Assembly (NCBI GenBank): GCA_945901245.1
Contig: CAMDKY010000016.1
Coordinates: 1 to 36,760, forward strand
DNA from: Polynucleobacter meluiroseus
GTDB taxonomy: Bacteria; Pseudomonadota; Gammaproteobacteria; Burkholderiales; Burkholderiaceae
Direction: 5' to 3'
Length of the DNA: 36,760 bases
Under the pieces are notes generated by a model. It had not been told where the DNA came from and did not search any database. It saw only the letters and a list, made by a program, of their open reading frames with translations. The translations under genes were made by a program, and so were the position numbers. Shown here piece after piece: positions 1 to 1,539 of the stretch (the first letter of the stretch is position 1; the number at the start of each line of letters is the position of its first letter).

Positions 1-227
1 ATACATCCTCTAACCCACTTCTCAATCTCAGCTTTGTAACCCTCTTCAAATAATTTAGAGGCAGTAAATATAGGTCGAAACTCATCTTCATCATTGAGCT
101 CAGAAGGTTTTGGGCAATAAATTGTCAGAGTCTCGACTATCTCGAGCGCATGATTTAAGTTGTTACCGGCCAGGGATTTGTATTTGTGAAAATATCCTCG
201 ACCAAAAGTTATTTTTGTTTGATCCAT
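1..227 (-). CDS. Partial DUF2971-like protein (N-terminus only)
   Basis: An open frame runs from an ATG at 227 down to the left edge without a stop, giving about 75 residues, so the gene is cut by the window. The start reads MDQTKITFGRGYFHKYKSLA, followed by a segment containing YCPKPSELNDEDEFRP. A K-Y-K-S-L opening followed by a P-x-x-x-N-D motif is the style of DUF2971 proteins, whose function is unknown and which are often found in accessory regions. The match is by eye and covers only the N-terminus. No clear Shine-Dalgarno precedes the ATG, so the true start may differ. It lies just downstream of the tRNA terminator on the same strand and is AT-richer than the core genes. Confidence 0.5.
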   Translation of the reverse strand, partial: MDQTKITFGRGYFHKYKSLAGNNLNHALEIVETLTIYCPKPSELNDEDEFRPIFTASKLFEEGYKAEIEKWVRGC

Positions 228-243
228 TACTATCACTATAGAC

Positions 244-271
244 AAAAAAATACCAACCCGAAGGCTGGTAT
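244..271 (-). terminator. Intrinsic terminator behind the tRNA gene
   Basis: Read on the minus strand, a 9-bp stem ATACCAGCC / GGTTGGTAT with one G-T pair encloses a TTCG tetraloop and is followed by seven Ts (244-250). It begins 10 nt after the tRNA CCA end, so it is well placed to end the tRNA transcript. Confidence 0.85.
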
Positions 272-280
272 TCTCATTTC

Positions 281-569
281 TGGTGGGCCCACCAGGACTT
301 GAACCTGGGACCAAAGGATTCCGGTTTGTGTAATTTTCATTACTCCCTGGACTATGCCTTCATCATATTGATTGCTCAACTTAGATGGGTGCCGTCTAGT
401 CTCTACACGTTCAAAGTATTTCTACTAAGCTTCGCTCGGCGTTGGCTTGTGCAGCTTTTGGCTGCATTTAGCTTTCTCCGAATTTGACACCATCCCTTAT
501 GCAGTTTCCACGCATAAGGCACAACTTTCGCTATGAGTCCTCTGCTCTAACCAACTGAGCTATGGGCCC
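281..569 (-). tRNA. tRNA-Ile2 (CAU), interrupted by a group I intron
   Basis: The 5' exon is 569..533 and the 3' exon is 320..281, together a 77-nt tRNA with an encoded CCA. The acceptor stem GGGCCCA / TGGGCCC is perfect. D arm, T arm (CCAGG TTCAAGT CCTGG) and anticodon stem (GAGGA / TCCTT with one G-T pair) are intact. The spliced anticodon loop is CTCATAA. Anticodon CAU can be elongator Met, initiator, or Ile2, where TilS changes C34 to lysidine. The ACTCATAATC loop context, the TTGGTC variable region, and C4-G69 and C5-G68 (known TilS determinants) favour Ile2. Azoarcus carries a similar intron in the same tRNA. The two exons are separated by the intron at 321-532. A promoter is not obvious, though TTGCAG (619..614) with TAAGGT (597..592) at 16-bp spacing is possible. 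Confidence 0.9.
321..532 (-). ncRNA. Group I intron (IC3-like, Azoarcus type) in the tRNA anticodon loop
   Basis: This 212-nt intron sits directly after U36 of the CAU anticodon and ends in G (321), the omega-G. P1 forms from exon CAU plus intron AGC pairing with GUU plus GUG around a GAAA loop, with the expected U-G wobble at the 5' splice site. P2 is CCUUAUGC / GCAUAAGG. Further on are a GCAGC / GCUGC hairpin, an AGUA-GAAA-UACU hairpin, and the conserved core strings GUGUAGAGACUAGACGGCAC and GGCAUAGUCCAGGGAGU. P9 is GUAAU-GAAA-AUUAC, and the intron ends ACACAAACCGG. These strings match my recollection of the 205-nt Azoarcus tRNA-Ile intron closely. No homing endonuclease is encoded. The 62-codon frame on the opposite strand is not a gene. 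Confidence 0.92.
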
Positions 570-572
570 TAA
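532..572 (-). repeat. 41-bp direct repeat, copy 1 (5' half of the intact tRNA)
   Basis: This stretch is identical base for base to 765-805, an offset of 233 bp. It covers three bases upstream of the tRNA, the whole 5' exon, and one base past the anticodon. Identity stops at the intron 5' splice site on one side and three bases before the tRNA on the other, so the repeat is almost exactly the 5' tRNA half. Confidence 0.9.
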
Positions 573-764
573 AACTTTACATTTACTACACACCTTACTA
601 CTGGTGTTTACCACTGCAAAACCACACTAAAACCGCATTTACTACACACCTCGGTTTTTGCTCCGGTGTGTAAGCGGTGTGTAAGCAATTTTGACCACCT
701 AATCGACCACTAAGCTCTTGAATCTATTGAGGTCTTTGCTACTAGACCCCTAGGGCTTCTTTCT
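573..764. other. Non-coding segment between tRNA halves, with attachment-site-like repeats
   Basis: This 192-bp stretch has no credible gene. It contains ATTTACTACACACCT twice (581-595 and 637-651) and GGTGTGTAAGC twice in tandem (665-675 and 676-686). The shared core GGTGTGTA thus occurs twice on each strand, at 665-672 and 676-683 on plus and at 587-594 and 643-650 on minus. Clustered short repeats in both orientations next to a tRNA are typical of arm-type binding sites for tyrosine recombinases. A smaller inverted repeat, GGTCT / AGACC, lies at 731-748. No integrase gene is present, so an attachment remnant is an inference. Confidence 0.4.
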
Positions 765-765
765 T

Positions 766-802
766 ATGAGTCCTCTGCTCTAACCAACTGAGCTATGGGC
801 CC
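766..802 (-). pseudogene. tRNA 5'-half fragment (tRNA-Ile2 CAU)
   Basis: It is identical to the 5' exon of the intact tRNA at 533-569, from GGGCCC through the CAU anticodon, but no 3' half follows; the sequence continues AAGAAAGAAGCCC. A -10-like TACAAT (817..812) lies 9 nt before its first base, so this fragment may sit behind the original tRNA promoter. It is part of the 41-bp repeat 765-805. It could be the left-behind half of a gene split by an integrating element, or a partial duplication. Confidence 0.8.
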
Positions 803-914: not shown

Positions 915-1145
915 ATGATCGTATCCAAATGGGGCAACAGCTTAGCCATACGACTGCCCTCTCAAGTAGTGGAGCATCTCAATCTCAAAGAGGGGGATGA
1001 CATTGAAATTCTTGTCGCCGATAAAAAACATTTTCAAGTGAAAAAGAAACCATCCCTGCAAGAGAGGATTGAGGGTTTGAGAAAATTCCGGGGACGCATG
1101 CCCGCCGATTTTCACTTTGATCGATCTGAATTGAATGAACGCTAA
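915..1145 (+). CDS. vapB: AbrB/MazE-fold antitoxin (VapB-type)
   Basis: The 76-residue protein begins MIVSKWGNSLAIRLP, the signature of the swapped-hairpin AbrB/MazE DNA-binding domain that occupies about residues 1-45. The C-terminal part (about 50-76, rich in charged residues and ending DFHFDRSELNER) would wrap and neutralise the toxin. The ATG at 915 is preceded by GGGAGAAAAG. A GTG at 912 is possible. A longer reading from 819 is unlikely because it would run through the operator palindrome. The stop overlaps the toxin start by 11 bp (1135-1145), giving translational coupling and antitoxin-first order. The function is inferred from family and arrangement. Confidence 0.88.
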   Translation: MIVSKWGNSLAIRLPSQVVEHLNLKEGDDIEILVADKKHFQVKKKPSLQERIEGLRKFRGRMPADFHFDRSELNER

Positions 1146-1539
1146 AAAGATATTCTTTGATACCAACACCCTGCTTTATCTTCTCTCTTCAAATGAGGAT
1201 AAGTCGAATTGGGTCAGCCGCAATCTACAACAATCCAATGTAATCAGCGTTCAGGTACTTAATGAGTTCACGTCAGCAAGCCTGAGAAAAATCAAGCTGA
1301 CACATACTGAGCTCGATGAATTTTTAGATTTATTTACTACAACATGTGATGTACGGTCGCTTGACCTAGAGACATTCGAGATTGGCTTAATGGTATCCAG
1401 AAGATATGGCTACCAGCACTACGATTCAATGATTATTGCTGCAGCACTACAGGCAGGATGTGAGCGGCTGTATTCAGAAGACATGCAACACCGACAAACC
1501 ATCGACAAACGACTACAGATCGTGAATCCTTTTATTTAA
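1135..1539 (+). CDS. vapC: PIN-domain ribonuclease toxin (VapC-type)
   Basis: The 134-residue protein is a single PIN domain. The acidic metal-binding residues expected for catalysis are present: D9 in FFDTNTLLYLL, E44 in VLNEF, D97 in HYDSMI and D116 in SEDMQH. VapC toxins are Mg-dependent endoribonucleases, several of which cut tRNAs at the anticodon loop or cut 23S rRNA; the target here cannot be told from sequence. The ATG lies inside the antitoxin gene, with no separate promoter. It is convergent with rpoD, 25 bp away. The AT-rich codon use and position next to a rearranged tRNA suggest acquisition by transfer. Nothing looks broken. Confidence 0.9.
   Translation: MNAKKIFFDTNTLLYLLSSNEDKSNWVSRNLQQSNVISVQVLNEFTSASLRKIKLTHTELDEFLDLFTTTCDVRSLDLETFEIGLMVSRRYGYQHYDSMIIAAALQAGCERLYSEDMQHRQTIDKRLQIVNPFI

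Follow-up and report, generated by a model that had tools for sequence, protein, structure and literature searches.

How does a bacterial tRNA gene come to be split by a ribozyme directly after its anticodon, a short distance from a second, broken copy of itself? The question is raised by the first 36,760 nt of contig CAMDKY010000016.1 of Polynucleobacter meluiroseus, the stretch analysed here and hereafter called the window. A sequence-only reading of the window had recognized a group I intron in a tRNA-Ile2 (CAU) gene beside rpoD and had attributed it to old inheritance or to spread between betaproteobacteria. That attribution missed the main point, as the intron appears to have arrived inside the replacement tRNA gene of an integrative element. 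The locus bears on two old questions: the reason for the clustering of bacterial tRNA introns in the anticodon loop, and a possible role of such introns in protection against integration.

Results

The split tRNA-Ile2 gene and its intron

The stretch at 281-569 (-) encodes tRNA-Ile2(CAU), and a group I intron interrupts the gene after the anticodon. ARAGORN run without introns found no tRNA in the window. With introns allowed, it returned the gene as c[281,569] with a 212-nt intron and labelled it tRNA-Met(cat), which bears out the earlier warning that tRNA finders may miss or mislabel it. The 5′ exon (533-569 (-)), with the anticodon CAT at its end, and the 3′ exon (281-320 (-)) were placed by exact match, and joining them gives a 77-nt cloverleaf. 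The intron (321-532 (-)) is inserted after position 36, runs from P1 to P9 and ends in G. A covariance search matched RF00028 at 545-328 (-) with 55.7 bits (E 1.2e-11), above the 50-bit gathering threshold. This was the sole gathering-threshold match in the window and the sole match at E<=0.001 in the 1.97-Mb draft. Behind the tRNA, a GC-rich hairpin followed by a T-run (244-268 (-)) reads like a terminator, and the start of an element ORF, truncated by the contig end, occupies 1-227 (-).

We aligned 57 distinct introns at the same site (36^37) from the window, the genus and other Burkholderiales. One locus, L191, was left out of alignment A2 because its intron lies at another site (33^34). 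The helices drawn from P1 to P9 were paired in 93.7% of cells, compared with 29-42% after sliding and 83.8% after shuffling, and 304 two-sided changes fell within them versus 74.8 in the shuffled alignments. For P3, P4, P7, P8 and P9, pairing reached 100% of cells and each of these helices showed one or more two-sided changes, so that the P3-P7-P8 fold, which had been named as a check on the intron, holds throughout. The P6 hairpin as drawn was paired in only 59.3% of cells. All 57 introns have a U.G pair at the 5′ splice site and a terminal G, consistent with the U-G splice site and omega-G first read from the window, where GAAA loops and a P1 formed with the anticodon are also seen. The proposed likeness to the Azoarcus intron holds as well, at 77% to L304, presumably an Azoarcus-type copy that matches the intron of Azoarcus sp. 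BH72. Based on these features, we predict that the intron is of the self-splicing type and that the RNA of this gene can still become a normal tRNA.

A target apparently cut at its anticodon loop

The sequence-only reading did not see the surroundings of the gene. An orphan 5′ half of the native tRNA-Ile2 stands at 766-802 (-) and a 3′ half lies on another contig of the genome, C56. The 5′ half is within a perfect 41-bp direct repeat, the copies of which (532-572 and 765-805) are 233 bp apart, the upstream copy ending in CTCATA. At 764-770 (-) it runs into CTCATAA, the 7-bp core of the anticodon loop, which occurs once in the window in tRNA orientation and forms the same junction in relatives; we call this the attL junction. 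From this core, a 194-nt spacer (570-763 (-)), regarded as the right arm of the element, leads to the complete tRNA gene, the rescue copy carried by the element. Inside the rescue gene the core is broken by the intron and reads CTCAT|AG (531-537 (-)).

The same spacer precedes most of the aligned intron genes (exceptions among those shown include G031, G033, G108 and G144). Two direct boxes, CTTACACACCG, lie in it 11 bp apart at 664-685 (-) and resemble arm-type sites, and a repeat search found an inverted box, GGTGTGTAGTAAATG, at 580-594 (-) and again at 636-650 (-). Upstream of 30 tRNA-Ile2 genes, 12.2 kb of sequence holds 37 copies of the TTACACAC box, compared with 20 copies in the remaining 508 kb (3.03/kb versus 0.039/kb), a density about 78-fold higher upstream of rescue tRNAs. 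The box also lies 76 nt before the attR core in L206, L214, L220, L225 and L228, and it is absent from the upstream stretch of L197, L202, L209, L210, L211, L215, L218, L220 and L222. The arm and rescue gene of the window (524-526 nt) share about 96% identity with their counterparts in G067 and G101.

Two different sequences precede the spacer, an orphan 5′ half-tRNA near rpoD or a different left arm at the far ends of islands, and both join it at CTCATAA. Relatives thus show three junction types at the same 7 bp: 5′ half to arm, left arm to arm, and left arm to 3′ half. The third was predicted and then matched, with up to 3 mismatches allowed, in 94 of 186 genus genomes, while a backwards control gave 1 match. 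In the window's own genome it is found at G000:C56:8008-8029, where left arm, CTCATAA and 3′ half-tRNA follow one another as an attR, on a contig separate from the attL core. Joined on paper, the 5′ half from the window and the 3′ half from C56 restore an intact tRNA-Ile2, the empty site.

These arrangements recur across the genus. Among the matches listed, 32 genomes show 35 pairs of 5′ halves whose members stand 198-253 bp apart. When all pairs spaced by 190-260 nt are taken and each of the resulting 38 attL sites is counted once, including four with a 33^34 or recoded rescue (G001, G041, G052, G098), 25 have a same-strand attR downstream within 100 kb (the nearest at 2.4-81 kb), 5 have one solely on another contig and 8 have none among the matches listed. 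Viewed from the other end, 36 of the 50 attR rows listed lie downstream of an attL on the same strand within 100 kb. A review likens the 7-bp anticodon loop, together with the stem beside it, to the overlap region and core sites of tyrosine recombinases (PMC8371274). Together, the three types look like the attL, tandem and attR junctions that a site-specific recombinase acting within this 7-bp loop would leave.

Recombination at the 3′ half was also considered, as suggested by islands without a visible integrase (G086, G082, G022), and was set aside because junctions of left arm to arm fit better. Elsewhere on C56 a second, degenerate 3′ half-tRNA lies about 840 nt past attR (L170), perhaps from an older insertion. 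Between rpoD and attL the window carries a MazE-like antitoxin and PIN-domain gene pair (915-1539 (+)), and by eye a similar-looking pair precedes tRNA-Ile2 in G059.

The integrase and the element

In G039, a 450-aa protein with integrase matches (phrog_1, 5e-32) is encoded next to the rescue tRNA. Its R235, K285, R373, H374 and Y406 are invariant in nine relatives and presumably form the catalytic set of a tyrosine integrase. Searches of Pfam and of PDB sequences gave no match to it, and the AlphaFold model has a mean pLDDT of 56, with much of the catalytic part below 50. Genus-wide, 22 of 31 long matches of at least 55% identity lie within 10 kb downstream of an intron match on the same strand, and 25 of the 31 lie within 40 kb of one, compared with 3 of the next 62 matches. 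Including four short fragments of at least 55% identity gives 23 of 35 within 10 kb downstream. Among the integrase matches lacking a nearby intron, two (G071, G076) accompany a rescue that is intact and intronless, and the rescue of G052 has a recoded stem.

In the window genome the integrase match is weak (best E 4.9e-6 among the matches listed), the element is broken over contigs, and 7 other integrase-domain matches are present. The element cannot be read through here because contig C16 starts inside it. A complete element of 27.4 kb, with integrase, is found in Polynucleobacter sp. CS-Odin-A6 (G101), and its cargo comprises nitrate and nitrite reductase-like, Rieske, NMT1-type and ABC transport, cyanase and CbiX genes. 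Two CS-Odin-A6 element loci, L175 and L176, show a nitrate/nitrite assimilation-like and cyanase cluster. Within elements, a short (190-aa) tyrosine recombinase can be seen beside the 450-aa integrase (L101:5852-6424 (-), L175:7796-8368 (+)). In a viral scan, an exact pattern from the attP arm hit one contig (L119), where by eye the stretch was unrelated and coding-like; this was judged a chance match.

Since attL, rescue gene and integrase follow one another in this order in relatives, where most attL have an attR downstream, we conclude that the native tRNA-Ile2 was cut by an element that carried a whole replacement gene with it, and that the window holds the attL end of this element. We give this reading, taken jointly with masking of the rescue gene by its intron as discussed below, a probability of roughly 0.7.

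Supply of tRNA-Ile2

The window genome is a draft of 79 contigs and 93.75% completeness, and 30 of its 33 tRNA matches were examined. Apart from the split gene, those of the 30 with a CAU anticodon are elongator Met and fMet, the naming of all three types being our assumption. The window tRNA is of the genus tRNA-Ile2 type and differs from both others. No intronless tRNA-Ile2 site was found in the draft, and the split gene is the only tRNA-Ile2 found in it. Likewise, where a 36^37 intron stands behind attL, none of the listed genomes of the genus (26 of 26) showed an intronless tRNA-Ile2 match at up to 3 mismatches. AUA accounts for 33 of 552 Ile codons in window ORFs of at least 200 aa. To our knowledge, no other tRNA reads AUA, a statement applied here to an incomplete draft. 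Splicing is thus likely to be needed to read AUA in this strain, as the sequence-only reading had supposed. By extension, AUA decoding in many Polynucleobacter species would probably depend on a ribozyme brought by a mobile element.

Occurrence beyond Polynucleobacter

A scan of named genomes by integrase alignment yielded 110 relatives, and 80 loci were kept. The integrase is preceded, at a distance of about 0.1-1.5 kb, by an intron-bearing tRNA-Ile2 in Limnohabitans (L210, L212, L215), a Comamonadaceae MAG (L211), Rhodoferax (L220), a Sterolibacterium MAG (L221) and Leptothrix (L222), and Rugamonas L219 has a divergent intron miscalled by ARAGORN. The order attL, intron-split rescue, integrase is seen in the Limnohabitans, Rhodoferax, Sterolibacterium, Leptothrix and Rugamonas loci. 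The host 5′ half stands ahead of the rescue in all eight loci except L211, which is at a contig edge. An attR lies downstream in three of these eight non-Polynucleobacter intron loci (L210, L211, L220), and none was found in the other five within the DNA stretches examined.

Group I matches were present in 40 of the 399 genomes of a sample drawn across the order. ARAGORN calls tRNA-Leu at 10 of the 29 group I loci given from this sample, wrongly at L296. Nine of 12 extended tRNA-Ile2 introns have no half-tRNA copy (L299-L304, L306, L307, L311) and look native, although L301 has arm-like sequence upstream. As introns occur at native-looking loci, the intron is older than the elements or more widespread. 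Of the other three, L305 has an orphan 3′ half alone, 1.7 kb on, L308 has both halves, and L309:14469-16608 (-) (family f42) has two orphan 5′ halves in a row, then an intron-split rescue and an adjoining 37% integrase. The first arm of L309 resembles the Polynucleobacter arm.

Several further observations were made in passing. A second family of group I introns interrupts tRNA-Ile2 at 33^34 (L191, L180, L202, L092, L311), and ARAGORN miscalls these genes as well, e.g. L202 and L311 as tRNA-Leu(taa). In other Burkholderiales, genes called by ARAGORN as tRNA-Asp(gtc), Thr(tgt) and Asn(gtt) are split by group I matches (L272, L276, L278, L282, L294). MAG contigs labelled Legionellaceae (L204) and Nitrospira (L216) encode integrases of the 450-aa family at 96% and 55%, and their labels may reflect either mis-binning or transfer.

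States of the rescue gene

Both the host 5′ half and the rescue gene are visible in 24 of the 80 named loci. The rescue is split by an intron in 18 of the 24, at 36^37 in 16 and at 33^34 in two (L191 and L202, where the junction reads GGACT|intron|CATAA). Five rescues (L206, L213, L225, L228, L265) are intronless with an anticodon stem unlike that of the host half, and one (L214) is intact. Among the Polynucleobacter matches listed, an intact rescue stands 225-226 bp behind attL in G062, G071, G073, G076 and G085. The rescue of G028 was left out of these classes, and L208 and L216 were assumed to be recoded because the host half is not visible. Among the 57 introns at 36^37, 53 alter CTCATAA at the 5′ junction. 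Those of L220, L300, L306 and L307 begin with AA and re-make it, displacing the 3′ stem side alone; the last three of these sit at native-looking loci.

Stem change and intron tend to exclude one another (17,1;1,5; Fisher p 0.0008), a descriptive figure only, in which related loci are taken as independent and the rows for L222 (stem unlike host despite an intron) and L197 (one changed base in the host half) are debatable. Host anticodon stems vary too. The stem-recoded rescues, with three stems, form one clade in the integrase tree (bootstrap support unsettled, some long rows) and were therefore counted as one origin, and the idea of many separate origins was dropped.

Discussion

Based on these observations, we propose the following mechanism. 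A tyrosine integrase would recombine the CTCATAA core of the element with the anticodon loop of the single native tRNA-Ile2 near rpoD. The native gene would be split, its 5′ half remaining at 766-802 and its 3′ half coming to lie at the other end of the element (C56). The complete tRNA-Ile2 gene directly behind the right arm would restore AUA decoding. Since the intron interrupts this rescue gene within the integrase site, at CTCAT|AA, the gene has probably ceased to be an attB at the DNA level, although normal tRNA could still be made from its RNA by splicing. Recombination between attL and an intact rescue some 200 bp away would delete the arm of the element and strand it. Most likely, the intron keeps the integrase from doing so and from inserting further elements in the rescue gene. 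In turn, the intron would move with the element. The simplest account of the nested 5′ halves in G042 and L309 is that intact rescues were later hit by further insertions. A likely function of the intron is to mask the rescue gene from the integrase. Masking is not obligatory: intact rescues exist in five Polynucleobacter genomes and in L214.

A wider claim can be put forward tentatively, at a shade under even odds. Self-splicing introns would act as DNA camouflage for the replacement tRNA of an element, hiding it from the element's own and rival integrases and being undone at the RNA level. The integrase would spread the intron without homing, and the same pressure would have produced both the two intron sites and the recoded stems.

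Under a rival reading, the intron is a passenger. The element and rescue would be as described, with the rescue copied from a host gene that already had its intron, and splicing would make that intron neutral and without a role. The introns at the same sites in nine of 12 extended loci, which have no half-tRNA copies, speak for this; intact rescues exist, and the L220 intron re-makes the 7-mer. Nevertheless, the presumed att site is altered in more than one way, by two different introns at separate sites of one loop and by recoding of the stem. Changes there are seen in 23 of 24 rescues, although the loci are related, and the nested 5′ halves suggest that intact rescues get hit. We therefore regard an intron without a role as unlikely, while still a serious contender to masking.

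Spread by homing is far less probable. A free-standing endonuclease would cut intronless tRNA-Ile2, and repair would copy the intron together with its flanking module, leaving the integrase a minor part. A gene resembling phage homing endonucleases (phrog_9084, 7.8e-20; phrog_7140) does lie between rescue tRNA and integrase in G101 and G039 (L175:1141-2376 (+), L102:6947-8137 (+)), with relatives in G041, G098 (a fragment), G183 and, weakly, G082. However, such matches occur in 11 of the loci examined, from six genomes, and no more than about 0.1 kb separates rescue and integrase in L210, L211 and L212. After repair one would expect a replaced native gene, not a 5′ half and a distant 3′ half, and the meeting of distinct arms at a fixed 7-bp core speaks against it as well. 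Finally, an ordinary inherited intron in a native tRNA beside an unrelated duplicated fragment is scarcely credible, since the 5′ half recurs at a similar distance in 32 listed genomes with a matching 3′ half downstream in most, even though such introns are known from Azoarcus (PMC3984707) and native-looking loci elsewhere carry them.

Masking by an intron thus remains our preferred reading. If it is correct, a freshwater bacterium would read one codon through a tRNA gene brought by an island to replace the copy that the island broke. Because the integrase, its target, and altered and intact rescues occur side by side in freshwater bacteria, including several named strains, the idea is directly testable. 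In the titles and abstract openings searched, we found no report of a rescue tRNA interrupted by an intron on a bacterial element.

The intron itself is of a known kind. The IC3 intron in the pre-tRNA-Ile of Azoarcus sp. BH72 shares the tRNA, the insertion after the anticodon, the P1 formed with the anticodon and the GAAA loops. In contrast, L304, the presumed Azoarcus-type copy, has no half-tRNA or integrase match in 20 kb, whereas the window gene belongs to an integrative element.

The element recalls several mobile systems. Islander genomic islands likewise use a tyrosine integrase that splits a tRNA gene which the island then restores, the regenerated gene and a displaced fragment marking the island ends (PMC4383910). 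Here, restoration is by a second complete gene, which is mostly no intact target itself, and not by completion of a hybrid gene. Tycheposons, compared by description alone, are also islands that sit at tRNA genes and have a tyrosine recombinase; nitrate assimilation is among their metabolic cargo, and the 27.4-kb element of G101 falls within their definition (cargo of 4-200 kb, tyrosine recombinase, border tRNA); the accessible text describes no intron-split rescue tRNA (PMC10872708). IStrons, too, pair a group I intron with a DNA mobile element, but their intron is joined to an insertion sequence, the insertions of which it renders harmless, while the present intron sits in the rescue tRNA (PMC4227781).

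The masking idea has archaeal precedent. The proposal that tRNA introns give protection goes back to Randau and Soll (2008), as cited in PMC4390854 and PMC4090602. The closest parallel is a tRNA-Thr intron of Caldiarchaeum, which, according to Sugahara 2012 (PMC3293823), was brought by an integrating element and may stop further invasion. There too, a 5′ half-tRNA repeat lies upstream of the intron-bearing tRNA, with a recombinase adjoining. That case concerns one archaeal locus and an enzyme-spliced intron at 24/25, thought to lie within the recombining attP tRNA. The Polynucleobacter system differs in having a ribozyme of the self-splicing type, a complete rescue gene behind the att core, a presence in several genera, two intron sites and a stem-recoded alternative.
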